From: Bacteroidaceae bacterium
GTDB lineage: Bacteria > Bacteroidota > Bacteroidia > Bacteroidales > Bacteroidaceae
Length of the DNA stretch: 43,899 nucleotides
Assembly: GCA_017617635.1 (NCBI GenBank)
Contig: JAFZVW010000016.1
Coordinates: 1-43,899, forward strand
Direction: 5' to 3'
Shown: positions 3,600 through 10,765 of the stretch, in pieces
Position numbering within the stretch: position 1 is the first letter of the stretch
How the letters are laid out: each line of letters begins with the position of its first letter
Translations under genes and position numbers: made by a program
The notes under the pieces: generated by a model
The model's input: only the letters and a program-made list of their open reading frames with translations
Databases searched by the model: none
Told to the model about the DNA's origin: nothing

Positions 3600-3630
3600 C
3601 ATGGGACAAAACCAAAATAACAGAAGAAAA

Positions 3631-4938
3631 ATGATTTGGAATCAGAACAAAGAATGCATGAGTCGCGACGAGATGAGCGCCTTGCAAGGCAAACGCCTGC
3701 ACAAGATTGTGGAATATGTCTACCACAATGTGCCCTTCTATCGCAACAAACTGCAGGAGATGGACATCCGTCCCGATGACATCCAGACAATCGAAGATAT
3801 CAGGAAACTGCCGTTCACAACGAAGAAAGACCTCAGGGACAACTATCCTTTCGGTCTCCAGGCAGCTCCGCAGAGCGAGATTATCCGTGTTCACGCCAGC
3901 AGCGGCACAACGGGCAACCCCACCATCGTGGGCTATACACGCAAGGACATAGGTGTATGGAGCGAATGTATGGCACGCTGTCTGACGGCATACGGCATTA
4001 CACGCGACGACACTTTCTCGGTAGCATACGGCTACGGATTATTCACAGGCGGCCTGGGTGCCCACTATGGTGTGGAACACCTGGGAGCGAGTGTAATACC
4101 TGCCGGAACGGGAAATACCGAGAAGCATCTGAAACTGATTCGCGACCTGGGCATAACAGGTATCGCATGTACCCCTTCATACGCCCTGTATCTGGCAGAG
4201 ACAATGGACAAGATGGGCATCAGGAAGGAGGACCTGAAGTTGCGTTCGGGTGCCTTCGGTGCAGAGCCTTGGACAGAGAGCATGCGCAAGGAGATTGAGG
4301 AACGTCTGGGATTGAAGGGCTACAACCTGTATGGCCTCAGCGAGATAATGGGTCCCTGCGTCAGCTATGAATGTCAGGAGCAGAACGGTTCTCACATCAA
4401 CGAGGATCATTTCTATCCCGAGATTATCAATCCCGTCACTTTGGAGTCGTTGCCCAACGGTCAGTCGGGCGAGCTGGTGTTTACCACTCTTACCAAGGAG
4501 GGAATGCCTCTGCTCCGCTACCGTACACGTGACCTGTGCTCGCTTATGCCCGGACAGTGCAACTGCGGCCGTACCAGCATTCGCATGAGCCGTATCGAAG
4601 GCCGTTCGGACGATATGCTCATCATTCGCGGTATCAATGTATTCCCGTCTCAGGTGGAGAGTGTCGTACTGAGCATGCCCGAATTTGCTCCGCGCTACCT
4701 GCTTGTCGTGGATCGCGTCAACAACCTGGATACATTGCAGGTACAGGTCGAACTCCGTCAGGAATACTTCACAGCAACTTTCGATACACCTGCCGCCATT
4801 GACGACCTGGAAAAGAAACTGGCATCGAAGCTGAAGAGCGTGCTCAGCATCTCGGCCAAGGTACAGCTGAAGGCACCGGGCACCATCGAACGCAGTCAGG
4901 GCAAGAGCGCCCACATTATCGACAAGCGCAAGCTCTAA
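3631..4938 (+). CDS. Phenylacetate-CoA ligase family protein (copy 1)
   Basis: A 435-residue AMP-forming aryl-acid:CoA ligase of the PaaK family, activating an aryl acid with ATP and CoA in the cytoplasm (the reverse reaction is also possible). Visible motifs: SSGTTGNP (about 90-97, ATP loop), YGLSE (about 234-238), YRTRDL (about 297-302), GRSDDML and GINVFPSQ (about 324-341, hinge and C-terminal domain) and a C-terminal basic KRKL tail with the lysine-containing GKSAHIIDKRKL region. Length fits the family. I chose the ATG at 3631 rather than 3601 because a promoter -7 box ends at 3599. An ACT-domain gene and a second ligase follow. In Bacteroidota this ligase/ACT/ligase set is often found near indolepyruvate:ferredoxin oxidoreductase genes, which are not in this window. 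Its acid may be phenylacetate, an indole or phenol analogue, or another arylacetate. Confidence 0.88.
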   Translation: MIWNQNKECMSRDEMSALQGKRLHKIVEYVYHNVPFYRNKLQEMDIRPDDIQTIEDIRKLPFTTKKDLRDNYPFGLQAAPQSEIIRVHASSGTTGNPTIVGYTRKDIGVWSECMARCLTAYGITRDDTFSVAYGYGLFTGGLGAHYGVEHLGASVIPAGTGNTEKHLKLIRDLGITGIACTPSYALYLAETMDKMGIRKEDLKLRSGAFGAEPWTESMRKEIEERLGLKGYNLYGLSEIMGPCVSYECQEQNGSHINEDHFYPEIINPVTLESLPNGQSGELVFTTLTKEGMPLLRYRTRDLCSLMPGQCNCGRTSIRMSRIEGRSDDMLIIRGINVFPSQVESVVLSMPEFAPRYLLVVDRVNNLDTLQVQVELRQEYFTATFDTPAAIDDLEKKLASKLKSVLSISAKVQLKAPGTIERSQGKSAHIIDKRKL

Positions 4939-4949
4939 GAAGATTTAAT

Positions 4950-5017
4950 AATTTAAAGATTAAAGATTAAAAGATTAAATACCAATACTTTAAACTGTAA
5001 ACCTTAAACTTTAAACT
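4950..5017. repeat. AT-rich direct repeats between ligase 1 and the ACT gene
   Basis: The 84-bp gap holds short tandem repeats: three copies of an AAAGATT-type unit, then three TTAAACT/TAAACC-type units. It contains no Shine-Dalgarno sequence and no clear TAnnTTTG box, so the ACT gene is probably read from the upstream promoter. Similar low-complexity leaders occur before the porin gene (TTCATAATTCATAATT) and around the ABC-F gene. Confidence 0.55.
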
Positions 5018-5022
5018 GAAAT

Positions 5023-5445
5023 ATGACAATCCATCAGTTATCCATTTTCATTGAGAACCGTTCAGGTACACTTATCAAGGTTCTCGAGGCTCTGAAAGAA
5101 GCAAACATTCAGATTATAGCCTCAACAATTGCCGATACGGCAGAGTACGGAATCCTTCGCATCGTATGTGCAGAGCCAATGCGTGCCTGCGAGGAACTGA
5201 AGAAGGCAGGCATTGCCGTTGCCATCTCCGACGTCTTTGCATTGCAGCTTGACAACAAGCCTGGCTGTGCCGCAGATGTCATCGAGCTGTTCAGCAAGGC
5301 CGGAATCAGCATTACATACATCTACAGCTTCCTGTATGGCGGCAAGGGCATACTGGTGTTCCGCACCGACAATACCGAGCTGGCACGCGAGACGATAACA
5401 CGTAACAATCTGCCTTTCATCGACGAGAATGCACTCGCCCTGTAA
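5023..5445 (+). CDS. Tandem ACT-domain protein
   Basis: A 140-residue protein built from two ACT domains. The first begins with QLSIFIENRSGTLIKVLEALKEANI (residues 5-29), the usual beta-alpha-beta opening with the Gly/Leu turn, and the second covers about residues 71-140 (LDNKPGCAADVIELFSKAGISITYIYSFL). ACT domains bind amino acids or other small ligands and are usually regulatory. There is no catalytic domain, so it is likely a small-molecule sensor or modulator for the two ligases that flank it. It is 84 bp after ligase 1 and 33 bp before ligase 2. Which ligand it binds is unknown; an aromatic amino acid would fit the context. Confidence 0.85.
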   Translation: MTIHQLSIFIENRSGTLIKVLEALKEANIQIIASTIADTAEYGILRIVCAEPMRACEELKKAGIAVAISDVFALQLDNKPGCAADVIELFSKAGISITYIYSFLYGGKGILVFRTDNTELARETITRNNLPFIDENALAL

Positions 5446-5478
5446 GGCAAAAAGAATTTAATGATTTAACATTTTAAT

Positions 5479-6795
5479 ATGGACGTAAAATCCCAATACT
5501 TCCACCCTGAATTCGAGACACTCTCCCGTGAGGAAATCAACAGGTTGCAGACGCAACGCCTGCAGGAGACTGTCAAGAGATGCGCAAACGTACCATTCTA
5601 TGCCGCCAAGTTCAAGGAAATGGGAATCAAGGCAGAGGACATCACTTCGCCCGAAGACGTGCGCAAGCTGCCTTTCACCACGAAGCAGGACTTGCGCGAC
5701 AGCTATCCCTTCGGTCTTGCGGCTGTACCACTGGACGAATGCGTACGACTGCATTCGAGCAGCGGTACAACAGGTAACCCGACAGTTATCCTGCACACAA
5801 AGAACGACCTGGACGAATGGGCGAACCAGGTGGCCCGTAACCTGTGGATGGTAGGTCTCCGTCCCGGTGACGTATTTCAGAATTCGTCCGGCTACGGTAT
5901 GTTCACCGGTGGTCTTGGCTTCCAGTACGGAGCCGAGAAGCTGGGCATGCTGACGGTTCCTGCAGCAGCAGGCAACTCGTTGCGCCAGATCAAGTTCATC
6001 AAGGACTTCGGCACTACGGCAATACATGCCGTCCCCTCGTACCTGACAAGACTGTACGAAGTCATGCAGGAGCAGGGTGTTGATCCACGCAAGGATACCA
6101 GGCTCAAGGTCTTTGCCATAGGTGCTGAACCTCATTCGGAGGAACAGCGTCAGCGCATCGAGAACATGTTCGGTGTGAAGGCATACAACAGCTTTGGCAT
6201 GAGCGAGATGTGCGGCCCCGGTGTAGGATTCGAATGCAAGGAGCAGAACGGCCTGCATTTCTGGGAAGACTACTATATCGTGGAGATTGTCGACCCCGAG
6301 ACGCTGGAGCCGGTACCCGACGGAGAGATAGGCGAACTGGTGCTCACTACCCTGCGCCGCGAGGCAATGCCTCTGATCAGATACCGTACACGCGACCTTA
6401 CACGTGTTTTGGGCAGGACCTGTCCCTGCGGACGCAACCATGTACGCATCGACCGCATGAAGGGCCGCAGCGACGATATGATGGTGCTGCGTGGCGTGAA
6501 TATCTTCCCCATCCAGATCGAGAAGATACTGATGCAGTTCAGCGAACTTGCCAGCAACTACCTGATTACCCTTACTACCGACAACGACAACGACAACATG
6601 ACCGTCGAAGTGGAACTGGCAGAGATGTTCACCGACGACTATGCCCGACTGCAGGCACTGTCTAAGAACATCACACGTGCGCTCAAGGACGAAATCCTGC
6701 TGACACCAATCGTCAAGCTCGTCCCCAGAGGCTCTCTGCCTGTCAGCGAAGGCAAAGCCGTCAGGGTCGTTGACAAGAGAAAGGTTTACCAGTAG
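5479..6795 (+). CDS. Phenylacetate-CoA ligase family protein (copy 2)
   Basis: A 438-residue second member of the PaaK family. The same order of motifs is present: SSGTTGNP near residue 94, SFGMSEMCGPG in place of the YGLSE motif of copy 1, YRTRDL, GRSDDMMVLRGVNIFPIQ and a C-terminal GKAVRVVDKRK segment holding the catalytic lysine region. The two ligases share long stretches (for example KLPFTTK-DLRD-YPFGL and AMPLIRYRTRDL or its close variant) but differ in the binding-pocket half, so they are paralogues with probably different aryl acids. It lies 33 bp after the ACT gene, on one transcript. A 22-bp tandem repeat begins directly after its stop. The activity class is firm; the exact acid is not known. 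Confidence 0.88.
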   Translation: MDVKSQYFHPEFETLSREEINRLQTQRLQETVKRCANVPFYAAKFKEMGIKAEDITSPEDVRKLPFTTKQDLRDSYPFGLAAVPLDECVRLHSSSGTTGNPTVILHTKNDLDEWANQVARNLWMVGLRPGDVFQNSSGYGMFTGGLGFQYGAEKLGMLTVPAAAGNSLRQIKFIKDFGTTAIHAVPSYLTRLYEVMQEQGVDPRKDTRLKVFAIGAEPHSEEQRQRIENMFGVKAYNSFGMSEMCGPGVGFECKEQNGLHFWEDYYIVEIVDPETLEPVPDGEIGELVLTTLRREAMPLIRYRTRDLTRVLGRTCPCGRNHVRIDRMKGRSDDMMVLRGVNIFPIQIEKILMQFSELASNYLITLTTDNDNDNMTVEVELAEMFTDDYARLQALSKNITRALKDEILLTPIVKLVPRGSLPVSEGKAVRVVDKRKVYQ

Positions 6796-6953: not shown

Positions 6954-7901
6954 CTATTTACTTTCCAGGAACTTCTTTACAATCTCCTCTGTTTTGTCCC
7001 AGAGTTCCTGCATCTGTTTGTGGTGATAGTACTTGTCACCGACGTTGATGATGCGGTTCGAACGGTTGAAGGTTCCCGTCTGAGAGGCCTTGTCCTCGTC
7101 CAGCAACAGGCGGATGGCTGTATCTGCACCCTTTCGTGGAGTGTAGATGCAAGGACGGAAGAAGATGTCCGCCAGGAAATCTACCACAGGGATATTCATG
7201 TGAATTATGTTGGTCGAAACCATCCAGGGGTCGGCAGCATTCACCGTGATGCCCTTGTCCTTCAGGAGCTTGGCAAGCTGGAAGGTGAAGAGCGTAATCG
7301 CCAGCTTGGTGTTGCAATATATATGGATGCGATGGAAACCCTTCTTCCTGCCGCGATTGAAGAACTCGGGGAAATCCAGTCGTCCCATCCAGTAGGTTAG
7401 CGAAGCCATATTCACAATACGGCTACCCTTCCCCATCAATGGCAGCAGAAGTCGCGTAAGCAGGTATGGACCAACATAGTTCACGCTGACGGTATGCTCG
7501 ATATTGTCGGGTGTAAGACGGAACTCCGTCTGTATGGTTCCGGCATTGTTCATCAGCAGATCCAGATGGTCGAAACGCGCCTTGATTTCGTCGGCAAAGC
7601 GCCTGACGGCACTCAAGTCAGCCAGTTCGATGCCCATCACCTCGACATTTTCGTTGCCTGTTGCACGGATGATTTCCTGTCTCTTTGCCTCAGCCTCGTC
7701 GGGATGATGGCAAGCCATGATTGTATGATACCCTTTTGCGGCTACAGCCTTAGCTTCCTCGAAGCCCATTCCTGTGCCGGCTCCGGTTATGATGGCAAGG
7801 CGGCCCCCCTCCTTCTCCCCCGAGGGGGAGTGACCATAAGTCTCCCCTCGGGGAGATTTAGAGGGGGCAGCTCTGTTCTCTTTCGATTCGTTCGATTTCA
7901 T
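6954..7901 (-). CDS. Short-chain dehydrogenase/reductase, candidate hydroxysteroid dehydrogenase
   Basis: A 315-residue classical-type SDR. The cofactor loop TGAGTGMG is at 39-46, NNAG at 118-121, the structural Asn in VNYVG at 141, and the catalytic Ser167, Tyr195 and Lys199 in NMASLTY and IYCNTK. It would oxidise or reduce a hydroxyl/ketone with NAD(P)H in the cytoplasm. It ends the three-gene unit with a steroid 5-alpha-reductase and an Old Yellow Enzyme-type reductase, so a 3-hydroxysteroid (3-beta) role is inferred. The first 33 residues are odd: they come from the end of the preceding gene in another frame (MKSNESKENR) plus a GC-rich palindromic repeat (AAPSKSPRGE...EGGR), and no other in-frame ATG, GTG or TTG precedes the Rossmann fold. 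It overlaps the preceding gene by 44 bp. Family is certain, substrate inferred. Confidence 0.88.
   Translation of the reverse strand: MKSNESKENRAAPSKSPRGETYGHSPSGEKEGGRLAIITGAGTGMGFEEAKAVAAKGYHTIMACHHPDEAEAKRQEIIRATGNENVEVMGIELADLSAVRRFADEIKARFDHLDLLMNNAGTIQTEFRLTPDNIEHTVSVNYVGPYLLTRLLLPLMGKGSRIVNMASLTYWMGRLDFPEFFNRGRKKGFHRIHIYCNTKLAITLFTFQLAKLLKDKGITVNAADPWMVSTNIIHMNIPVVDFLADIFFRPCIYTPRKGADTAIRLLLDEDKASQTGTFNRSNRIINVGDKYYHHKQMQELWDKTEEIVKKFLESK
7803..7868 (-). repeat. GC-rich palindromic element, copy A (inside coding sequence)
   Basis: Read on the minus strand, an outer stem GCCCCCTC...GGAGGGGGGC encloses two hairpins: CTCCCCGAGGGGAG (7842-7855) and CTCCCCCTCGGGGGAG (7815-7830), giving a cloverleaf-like fold of 66 bp. 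It contains the last codons and stop of the OYE gene in one frame and encodes about 23 N-terminal residues of the SDR in another. Copy B at 9128-9192 has the same order of parts in the opposite orientation. Confidence 0.85.
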
Positions 7902-9108
7902 TTATAATATTTTTTGGTAATTGTTCACTTATATGCTGATGACAAGCCATCTCCAAGGTGTACATCCTGCCTATGCAGTAGTTGCTGTGCCGACAGCCGC
8001 AACGATGATGCGGATCTTTCTTCAGACGGTTCACGAAATCAGGTTCGTTCAGCAAACTGCGTGCCATCTGCACCGCCTCGAACCCGTGACCAAGCACCTC
8101 GTTTATCTTGTCGCCGGCAACCAGGCCGCCCACGTAGATGAACTTCATGTCAGGCAGGGCTTCGCGGAACTTGAGCGCATCCTGCAGGAAGAAAGCCTCC
8201 TCGTACGGGACAGGCTTTGTCATGATGTTGCGAACGATTGGCTTGAACGAACGGATGCAGTACTTGAGCCAGGGCTTGTCCATATATTGCGTCATCGTTT
8301 CCAGAGGCAGTTCGCCACGCATCACATACATGGGTGTAGCACTAACCAAACCGCCGCTCAGCACTATGGCATGCACGCCCAGTTCCTGCAGGCGACGGGC
8401 AACGGGGATGCTGTGCTCTTCCAACGAGACACCGTTCTTCAATCCGTCGCGCATATTCATCTTGCACACGACGGCCATATCGTCCTTGGCAGCCTTCATA
8501 ACCTCCTCGATACAGAGTGTCATGAAACGCATACGGTTCTCCAACGAGCCTCCGTATTCGTCCTTGCGATGGTTGAAGTATGGATTCAGGAACTGGTCAA
8601 TCAGATAGCCGTGACCGCAATGGATTTCCACCTCGTCAAAACCTGCCTCTCGGGCCATGTTGACGGCATCACCGAACTTCTTAGCCAACACCGGCAGCTC
8701 CTCCTTGCGCAAGCCACGCACTATTGTGGGGCTGTACAGGTTGAATCCCGTACTTGCGCTCACGGGAATACAGCCGCAGATATTCTTGTGGCTCATATTA
8801 CCGCAATGTCCCAGCTGTATGCCTGCAGCTGCACCTTCCTTGTGAATACCATCCGTCAGGCGGCGAAGCCCCGGAACAATCTCAGGCTTCATCACCAGCT
8901 GGCGGTCGAAACTCAATCCGCTATCAGTCACAGCAGCGTATGCAACGGTAGTCATACCCATACCGCCACGGGCAACACTCGTATGGTAGTCATACAGCAT
9001 CTGGCTGGGTTCATGCCCCGGGCACATGCTCTCGAAAGCCGCACTCCTTATCGTACGGTTCCTCAACGTCAGCGGCCCTATGTGAGCCTCCTCGAAAATC
9101 TTGTTCAT
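7858..9108 (-). CDS. Old Yellow Enzyme-type FMN reductase, candidate 3-oxosteroid reductase
   Basis: A 416-residue TIM-barrel flavoprotein of the NADH:flavin oxidoreductase/OYE family. Features: the N-terminal LTLRNRTIRSAAFE, GIQLGHCGN near residue 97, the FMN/substrate-binding EVEIHCGHGYLIDQFLNPYFNHRKDEYGG region near 168-195 with SLENRMRF, the barrel end FIYVGGLVAGD and ALxMAR-like QMARSLL, and a Cys-rich segment (CGCRHSNYCIGRMYT) like that of the 2,4-dienoyl-CoA reductase/BaiCD/BaiH branch. It lacks the C-terminal FAD/NAD domain of those larger enzymes. It should reduce an activated C=C bond. Lying between a 5-alpha-reductase and an SDR it may be the 5-beta- or another ring-A/B enone reductase of a steroid or bile-acid unit; this is inference. 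Its last codons and stop (SCPL, TAA) fall in a palindromic repeat, and the SDR start lies within its 3' end. Confidence 0.85.
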   Translation of the reverse strand: MNKIFEEAHIGPLTLRNRTIRSAAFESMCPGHEPSQMLYDYHTSVARGGMGMTTVAYAAVTDSGLSFDRQLVMKPEIVPGLRRLTDGIHKEGAAAGIQLGHCGNMSHKNICGCIPVSASTGFNLYSPTIVRGLRKEELPVLAKKFGDAVNMAREAGFDEVEIHCGHGYLIDQFLNPYFNHRKDEYGGSLENRMRFMTLCIEEVMKAAKDDMAVVCKMNMRDGLKNGVSLEEHSIPVARRLQELGVHAIVLSGGLVSATPMYVMRGELPLETMTQYMDKPWLKYCIRSFKPIVRNIMTKPVPYEEAFFLQDALKFREALPDMKFIYVGGLVAGDKINEVLGHGFEAVQMARSLLNEPDFVNRLKKDPHHRCGCRHSNYCIGRMYTLEMACHQHISEQLPKNIINEIERIEREQSCPL

Positions 9109-9127
9109 TAATTAAATTAATTATTCG

Positions 9128-9192
9128 GCCCCTACCAAACCTCTCCCAGGGAAGGCTTCTATCTCTCCCCCTCGGGGGAGACGGAGGGGGGC
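9128..9192 (+). repeat. GC-rich palindromic element, copy B (intergenic, reaches the stop of the 5-alpha-reductase gene)
   Basis: A 65-bp copy with the same layout as copy A but in the other orientation: outer GCCCCTACC...GGAGGGGGGC, a worn hairpin CCTCTCCCAGGGAAGG (9140-9155) and a perfect hairpin CTCCCCCTCGGGGGAG (9165-9180). Its last C is also the first base (complement of G) of the TAG stop of the 5-alpha-reductase gene at 9192-9194. It lies between that gene and the OYE gene and could form a strong RNA structure in the operon transcript. Confidence 0.85.
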
Positions 9193-9962
9193 TAGTATAT
9201 ATATGGTATTATCCTTTTCCGTCCGGCAAGAGCATCCTGACCGAACTCTTCCCTGTACTTTTTATATATCGAATGCGCGCGAGGCACCAGGTTAGCAGCC
9301 GTCCACCACACAAACACCCACGCAGCAGGCGAACCTGCAACGATGGCAAAGCCCGTCCACTCGATGATTTCACCCAGATAGTTGGCCGAGGTCACATAGC
9401 GGTACATACCCTTCCCGGGCAGATAGTGGCGCGTATCCCCAGGCTTGCGAAGATGGCGGATTACATAATCCGAATGCAGGTTTATGGCCATTCCGGCAAA
9501 GAATACCACCAATCCTATAGCCGGCGTGCTGTGCGTGAAATACTTCCAACCCTCCTGATAAGCCTCCACAGGGAACCAGAAAAGCGCCCCGCCCTGCATG
9601 ATGCCGTTGATGATGTTGAACGTCACCCCCGACAGCATGATTGCTACAGGCATCCTGCTATGTCCCGACATCAGCAGCGGGAAAATGAAACTGCGCTGGA
9701 AATAATGCAGCAGGAACAATCCCAGCAGCACCACCTGCGGAGCAACCGTCGGACAGCCCTTTGCATACCATATACCCAGCATCATCAGGAATGCCGGAGC
9801 CTCCATCAGCACCCAGGCGACCTTGTTGTCAATACTCCATCCCCACTGCCTGGTGCGGAACTGACCATACCCTGCCGTAATGAAATACAGACAGACGAAT
9901 ACCACAACACCCAAACCCGTCATGGTATATATCAAACCGTTGAAAAAATCCATACAATTCAT
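9192..9962 (-). CDS. Steroid 5-alpha-reductase family protein (3-oxo-5-alpha-steroid 4-dehydrogenase type)
   Basis: A 256-residue integral membrane protein, the usual length of SRD5A enzymes, which reduce the delta-4 bond of 3-oxosteroids with NADPH. The match is across the chain: MEAP near 53-56 (Glu54 at the place of the catalytic Glu of SRD5A2), LLHYFQRSFIFPLLMSG at 84-100 (Tyr87 at the place of the catalytic Tyr91), GMAINLHSDYVIRHLRKPG at 157-175, GMYRYVTSANYLGEIIEWTG at 185-204 and the end RKRIIPYIY. It opens a minus-strand unit with an OYE-type reductase and an SDR. A -7 box at 9985-9992 gives a very short leader before the ATG at 9962; an alternative ATG lies three codons in. Family call is very firm; whether the substrate is a bile acid, steroid hormone or other enone is inferred. 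Confidence 0.9.
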   Translation of the reverse strand: MNCMDFFNGLIYTMTGLGVVVFVCLYFITAGYGQFRTRQWGWSIDNKVAWVLMEAPAFLMMLGIWYAKGCPTVAPQVVLLGLFLLHYFQRSFIFPLLMSGHSRMPVAIMLSGVTFNIINGIMQGGALFWFPVEAYQEGWKYFTHSTPAIGLVVFFAGMAINLHSDYVIRHLRKPGDTRHYLPGKGMYRYVTSANYLGEIIEWTGFAIVAGSPAAWVFVWWTAANLVPRAHSIYKKYREEFGQDALAGRKRIIPYIY

Positions 9963-9984: not shown

Positions 9985-10017
9985 CAAAATTACAAAAAAA
10001 CTGCCATTATCCCCAAG
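9985..10017 (-). promoter_or_regulatory. Promoter of the 5-alpha-reductase operon
   Basis: On the minus strand TAATTTTG (9985-9992) fits TAnnTTTG and CTTG (10014-10017) lies 21 bp upstream. Transcription would begin near 9978, about 16 bases before the ATG at 9962. It overlaps, in the opposite direction, the region holding the promoter of the SIMPL-domain gene. Confidence 0.6.
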
Positions 10018-10072: not shown

Positions 10073-10765
10073 ATGAAAGAGAATCGTTTAATAGCAGCTG
10101 CTATAATAGCTGTTGGTATCATTTGCCTGGGGTGGTTCGTAAAGGCCGGCATAGACAACTTCGCCAACAAGGACCGCCATGTGACGGTAAAGGGACTGGC
10201 CGAGCGCGAAGTGCCTGCGGACAAGGTGACATGGAGCATCGGCACGAAGGTGACGGGAAACGACCTGCCAATGCTCTACGAAAGCATTAACCTGCAGACG
10301 GACAAGATCAAGAAGTTCCTGAAACTGAACGGACTTGACGAGAAGGAAATCACCGTCAACCCGCCAACCATCAACGACCTTGAGGCACGCGAGTGGGGCG
10401 AGAACAACAAGAGCTTCCGCTACATCGTCTCAACAACCATCACGGTGGCCACAGGTAAGGTGGACGAGGTGAACAAGGCCATCTTCCGTCAGGCAGAGCT
10501 CCTGAAACAAGGTGTAGCCATCGACAACAGCAATGCACAGTACGAGTATGCCTCGTTCCAGCAAATGAAGCCCGAGATGATGGCCGAGGCAATCAAGAAC
10601 GCACAGAAGACGGCGGAACAGTTTGCCGAGGCAAGCAACGCACGCCTGGGTGATATCCAGACAGCCGGCCAGGGACAGTTCGAAATTGACAACCGCGACG
10701 AAAACACACCCTACATCAAGAAACTGCGCGTAGTAACCACCATCACCTATTCGTTGAAGGAATAA
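10073..10765 (+). CDS. SIMPL-domain (DUF541) protein, membrane-anchored
   Basis: A 230-residue protein with one N-terminal membrane segment (about residues 7-25, [17 protein letters not shown]) and then a SIMPL/DUF541 domain facing the periplasm, shown by [39 protein letters not shown] and the closing [15 protein letters not shown]. Proteins of this family are periplasmic or surface-associated oligomers with poorly defined roles, some linked to oxidative or envelope stress. It is transcribed away from the 5-alpha-reductase gene, from a -7 box at 10036. A fragment of a broken gene begins just after its stop. No catalytic function can be assigned. Confidence 0.85.

Follow-up and report, generated by a model that had tools for sequence, protein, structure and literature searches.

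A predicted steroid A-ring remodelling operon with an SRD5A-type 5-alpha-reductase in an uncultured genus of Bacteroidaceae

The closest described system is the gene cluster of gut Bacteroidota that leads to isoallolithocholic acid (isoalloLCA). In Parabacteroides merdae, disruption of the steroid 5-alpha-reductase (5AR) gene blocked allolithocholic acid (alloLCA) derivatives, a result that the review PMC10382948 credits to Sato et al., and the 5AR gene is described in the same text as clustered with a predicted 3-beta-hydroxysteroid dehydrogenase (3-beta-HSDH) and a BaiCD/BaiH-like NADH:flavin oxidoreductase. PMC9645264 describes the same indirect pathway and terms the Bacteroidetes enzymes membrane-associated; it sets them apart from BaiP and BaiJ, the bile acid 5-alpha-reductases of Firmicutes, which make allo-bile acids. 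According to two reviews, isoalloLCA promotes regulatory T cells (PMC11271093) and inhibits Gram-positive pathogens (PMC10382948). OsrB/ci2350 has been presented as a steroid 5-beta-reductase clade by Arp et al. (PMC11722256). In this study, a stretch of 43,899 nucleotides from an uncultured Bacteroidaceae bacterium (assembly GCA_017617635.1, contig JAFZVW010000016.1; hereafter the window) was found to carry the same three kinds of gene in a cluster, with a 5AR of the SRD5A type, an OYE-type reductase and a short-chain dehydrogenase (SDR), as follows.

9192..9962, minus strand: 5AR, membrane steroid 5-alpha-reductase homologue of the SRD5A family (256 aa; Pfam PF02544).
7858..9108, minus strand: OYE, short FMN ene-reductase, proposed 3-oxo-delta4-steroid 5-beta-reductase/dehydrogenase (416 aa).
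6954..7901, minus strand: SDR, proposed 3-beta-hydroxysteroid dehydrogenase (PF00106; 315 aa, about 33 of them in an N-terminal extension).

All three open reading frames named by an earlier, sequence-only reading of this DNA were present at these positions on the minus strand, and the motifs it had quoted from 5AR were found in the protein. The genes follow one another in the direction of transcription as 5AR, OYE and SDR; the gap of 83 bp between 5AR and OYE and the overlap of 44 bp between OYE and SDR give the spacing of an operon. The genome to which the window belongs, as one contig, comprises 2.05 Mb in 65 contigs and is 85% complete, and the single PF02544 gene and the single PF00724 gene found in it both lie inside the trio, as 5AR and OYE. 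From this content and the evidence below, the three genes probably form an operon that remodels ring A of 3-oxo steroids. In the proposed scheme, the FMN-dependent OYE would turn 3-oxo-5-beta into 3-oxo-delta4 steroids and back, with hydride transfer at the FMN and Tyr168 as the proton donor; the membrane 5AR would convert the 3-oxo-delta4 compound to the 3-oxo-5-alpha form with NADPH, Glu54 and Tyr87 polarising the 3-oxo group; and the SDR would then act on the 5-alpha product, reducing its 3-oxo group to yield a flat 3-beta-hydroxy-5-alpha steroid, the type of end product reported for isoalloLCA in Parabacteroides. The reactions, their direction, the substrate and the stereochemistry are all predicted.

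The sequence-only reading had taken 5AR for an SRD5A homologue with Glu54 and Tyr87 as catalytic residues, and this is borne out by family, structure and conservation. The C-terminal domain matched Pfam Steroid_dh (PF02544) with 120.2 bits (cut-off 22.6, E 9.8e-35), and the best solved structures were 7c83 (5.5e-48) and 7bw1 (3-oxo-5-alpha-steroid 4-dehydrogenase 2, SRD5A2; 2.4e-40), the latter being the human enzyme. In the alignment to the 7bw1 chain, Glu54 and Tyr87 fall on SRD5A2 positions 57 and 91, the query, which lacked Met1, being numbered one lower and the chain numbers being taken less 4; in human numbering, the SRD5A catalytic pair is Glu57/Tyr91. Glu54, Tyr87, Arg172 and Arg228 were invariant in 117 of 117 aligned rows, the window counting as one row, and Asn194 was kept in 114 of the same 117. 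The window protein thus has the family, the catalytic Glu/Tyr and the conserved Arg/Asn in common with SRD5A2 and 7c83; it differs from them in sitting in a bacterial operon and in that its steroid activity is a predicted one. As a side observation, one related locus (L132) has a short 5AR of 212 aa, which aligned in two pieces.

It could be argued that the substrate of the 5AR homologue is not a steroid but, for example, a polyprenol (as for SRD5A3) or an enoyl-CoA, that OYE detoxifies enones in general and that the SDR has no link to either, since PF02544 also includes polyprenol-type and enoyl-CoA reductases, and 5AR weakly matches DUF1295 and a very-long-chain enoyl-CoA reductase. However, that reductase is the next solved relative of 5AR at 2.7e-4, far behind 5.5e-48 and 2.4e-40, and OYE and 5AR co-occur and adjoin in many families. 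This explanation is very improbable, and a non-steroid PF02544 role for 5AR was rejected on those structure scores. A grouping with non-steroid families, which the earlier reading had named as the outcome that would speak against it, did not occur for 5AR.

The OYE protein matched Pfam Oxidored_FMN (E 3e-49), and the OYE fold was observed in its model. The substrate His pair and the Tyr proton donor of OYE ene-reductases are present as His163, His166 and Tyr168, which were kept in 111 of 111 rows and were aligned to 1z41; the corresponding residues of YqjM are 164, 167 and 169. Against the BaiCD model NF041087, OYE scored 175 bits, below the cut-off of 825, and covered positions 2-258 of 642. 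Behind the barrel, residues 370-390 hold the pattern C372-x2-S375-x2-C378-x10-C389, which departs from the four-cysteine 4Fe-4S motif. The expected cysteine at position 375 was never Cys (0 of 111 rows), the three-cysteine remnant was kept in 111 of 111, and C370 was found in 81 of 111. In VIA-align, the matches to 6qkg and 1ps9 run over residues 1-413, and the PETN-reductase rows likewise extend to residue 392; in the five alignments shown of a profile search of solved structures, the cysteine segment was not reached. The likeness to 4Fe-4S enzymes is based on these VIA-align ranges and the cysteine spacings, and on this basis the segment looks like a degenerate Fe-S-like motif in a protein without an FAD domain. 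With BaiCD/BaiH, 1ps9 (2,4-dienoyl-CoA reductase) and 6qkg (2-naphthoyl-CoA reductase), the window OYE shares the FMN barrel and the segment that follows, but it lacks their FAD/NADH domains and has one of the four expected cysteines replaced.

The absence of a C-terminal FAD domain had been pointed out before, and this part of the claim stands; within its group, the window protein, for which a distinct reductase had been suggested on this ground, is not set apart by it. Its homologues measure 405-442 aa, with starts chosen by script and leaving out the damaged or cut L112 and L170, and a truncation peculiar to the window genome was rejected on the same lengths. In L112 (Parabacteroides sp. 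BH.2_3), the OYE frame is broken and there is no 5AR within 4.3 kb upstream.

The third protein is an intact short-chain dehydrogenase as judged from its sequence, with 107.9 bits against PF00106 (adh_short; E 6e-31) and with both the Asn-Ser-Tyr-Lys tetrad and the glycine motif. When the top-matching SDR from every locus was aligned, Ser167, Tyr195 and Lys199 were present in all 87 rows and Asn118 in 86 of them. The best match of the window SDR in the Parabacteroides massiliensis genome and the reverse search, which covered this P. massiliensis SDR only, were reciprocal: against the window's own genome, the P. massiliensis protein scored 242 bits with the window SDR and 32 bits with the runner-up. 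The first 33 or so residues are variable among 21 aligned relatives, a comparison influenced by the choice of start, and the longest SDR frame also starts at the OYE end in several relatives (e.g. L052, L053 and L058). C/G-rich palindromic stretches (CTCCCC...GGGGAG) lie in the 5AR-OYE gap (9109-9191) and at the SDR start (7804-7901), and a stretch of 25-27 bp is common to the two regions in inverted orientation with 96% identity; this repeat or palindrome may explain the variable SDR N-terminus.

The arrangement of the window is widely conserved. Of 295 genomes sampled from the order, 70 had a 5AR (the window's own genome counted), as did 15 of 37 genomes of its genus. Sixty of the listed 5AR places were fetched, comprising 53 of the gut-type clade (at least 44% identity) and 7 of a distant class, and OYE lay within 700 bp downstream in 42 of the 53 gut-type loci. 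A second set was led by OYE and consisted of the best 80 of at least 530 confirmed places, reduced to 70 by removing 10 repeats of earlier loci and to 67 for the counts, because three had less than 900 bp upstream; 5AR lay within 700 bp upstream in 54 of the 67. Across both sets, a window-type SDR came next in 51 of the 96 loci with 5AR near. The gene order, which the sequence-only reading had proposed to compare across Bacteroidales, is accordingly conserved, and a chance neighbourhood of the three genes was rejected because the arrangement recurs in many Bacteroidales families. In the OYE and 5AR trees, sequences of one family mostly fall together, a pattern consistent with inheritance that was mainly vertical and accompanied by loss.

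Within the window's genus, OYE at more than 80% identity was present in 14 of 15 genomes with 5AR and in 0 of 22 without it (Fisher 2.5e-9, or 2.7e-7 when the OYE homologues of genomes G006 and G007 are counted, relatedness being ignored and the genomes incomplete). In G002 and G029, OYE is present on a contig other than that of 5AR; in these two genomes and in G019 (loci L062, L055 and L057, respectively), 5AR has no adjoining OYE, and in G019 no OYE was found and a second, partial 5AR lies at a contig end. In 11 trio loci of the genus (L051-L054, L056, L058-L061, L064 and L065), identity to the window was 81-91% for OYE, 51-68% for 5AR and 56-89% for SDR, so that OYE is far better conserved than 5AR and, mostly, than SDR.

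Eight named genomes of Bacteroides, Phocaeicola and Parabacteroides were also searched with all three window proteins. The three best matches adjoin in five of the eight (Parabacteroides massiliensis, Phocaeicola massiliensis, Bacteroides gallinarum, Phocaeicola coprophilus and Bacteroides oleiciplenus), in the same order as in the window and with identities of 52-62% for 5AR, 66-69% for OYE and 48-59% for SDR. The other three, all Parabacteroides (P. chinchillae, P. bouchesdurhonensis and P. distasonis An897), hold OYE at 65-66% identity, gave no 5AR match and gave a best SDR match of at most 36 bits. SDR tracks 5AR and not OYE, which suggests that its substrate is the 5-alpha product, an inference from the eight genomes and the locus table. 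The same three genomes are in favour of an OYE that works only reductively, as a 5-beta-reductase in its own right that competes with 5AR instead of supplying its substrate, and so are two genomes of the window's genus with OYE and no 5AR. On the other hand, the closely similar OYE was found in no genome of the genus without 5AR, as the count above records, and we consider a competing OYE unlikely.

With respect to the described cluster, the sequence-only reading had suggested that the window holds the reported trio. The kinds of gene, their order and the matching loci of Parabacteroides, Bacteroides and Phocaeicola agree with this; bile acids, as against other 3-oxo steroids, are a putative substrate, and the stereochemistry of the SDR is likewise putative. 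The resemblance to the cluster of Sato et al. (2021) thus consists in the three gene kinds and in the homologues of P. massiliensis and four Bacteroides/Phocaeicola genomes, and the difference is that the window unit comes from a different, uncultured genus. No earlier report of the trio in this genus or in the rumen was found among the matches listed. Units of this kind are known from relatives in the human gut, and the earlier reader was largely right.

Several findings weigh against the proposed operon and its bile acid role. OYE was missing from the fetched stretch in 11 of the 53 gut-type 5AR loci and was nearby in none of the 7 distant-class loci. In the OYE-led set, 5AR lay 1.4-4.1 kb upstream in 3 of the 67 (L146, L190 and L171) and was absent from the fetched flank in 10. 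Of the 96 loci with a nearby 5AR, 24 had a less closely related SDR (28-39% identical) further down, preceded in 15 of them by another recognised SDR, and 21 had neither kind of SDR, some of these ending at contig ends. Moreover, G006 and G007 carry an OYE of 53-58% identity and no 5AR; the P. merdae cluster was matched by description, the sequences compared being those of other Parabacteroides, Bacteroides and Phocaeicola; and no bile-salt hydrolase (CBAH) match was obtained in the window's own genome, at its 85% completeness.

The last point touches on the substrate. Trio loci of the same genus are titled goat omasum (L183), roe-deer omasum (L184), RUI210 (L185) and dairy cattle cecum (L166); of three further loci, whose OYE is 84-91% identical, one is from horse feces (L163) and two have run numbers only (L186 and L187). 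Digesta pass through the omasum before they reach the bile duct, and bile normally does not enter the forestomach. The omasum carriers and the missing CBAH match leave room for substrates besides bile acids; from the sequences, bile acids are a plausible substrate here, and steroids of plant or host origin are a serious alternative. In this genus, the same enzymes may act on plant sterols or steroids from the diet or on steroid hormones of the host, either using them as electron sinks or detoxifying them, in the forestomach or the hindgut. The goat and roe-deer genomes favour such substrates, as does CBAH, which was matched in 3 of 25 genus genomes searched (G006, partial; G007; and G021), all of them without 5AR. 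This non-overlap is nevertheless expected about 1 time in 4 by our own arithmetic, 9 of the 25 genomes holding 5AR, and the cattle cecum and horse feces carriers come from sites where bile acids occur, so that exclusively non-bile substrates appear somewhat doubtful. A more specific and tentative proposal, which we regard as rather unlikely, is that the trio of this herbivore-gut genus may be a bile-independent steroid A-ring isomerase unit for dietary or host steroids of the forestomach, in which OYE would be an FMN enzyme with a three-cysteine Fe-S remnant, fed by some electron donor, and the use of bile in the hindgut would be a later or parallel function.

A promoter-like match was found ahead of the trio.

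9985..10016, minus strand: Bacteroides-type promoter-like match TTG-N21-TAATTTTG, from a pattern scan, 22 bases upstream of the 5AR start.

The pattern had 12 matches in the window, whereas 30 first-order Markov sequences contained 2.6 on average (range 0-7); a sigma-70 promoter scan gave 0 sites. The next gene upstream of 5AR is a SIMPL gene (10073-10765), oriented oppositely. At 3601-6795 on the plus strand, two phenylacetate-CoA-ligase-like (PaaK type) genes lie on either side of an ACT-domain-pair protein (ACT_8). The eight neighbours of the trio that were tested had no match in the loci of 60 relatives.

In conclusion, the proposed remodelling of ring A places the window beside the known Bacteroidota cluster, and its less familiar details look to be the pairing of SDR with 5AR, the degenerate Fe-S-like segment of OYE, and the omasum carriers together with an own genome in which no bile-salt hydrolase was matched. 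The presence of the trio in an uncultured genus with ruminant members, some of its carriers living ahead of the bile duct, together with the association of SDR with 5AR, makes the question of the substrate directly testable and provides sequence markers for surveys.

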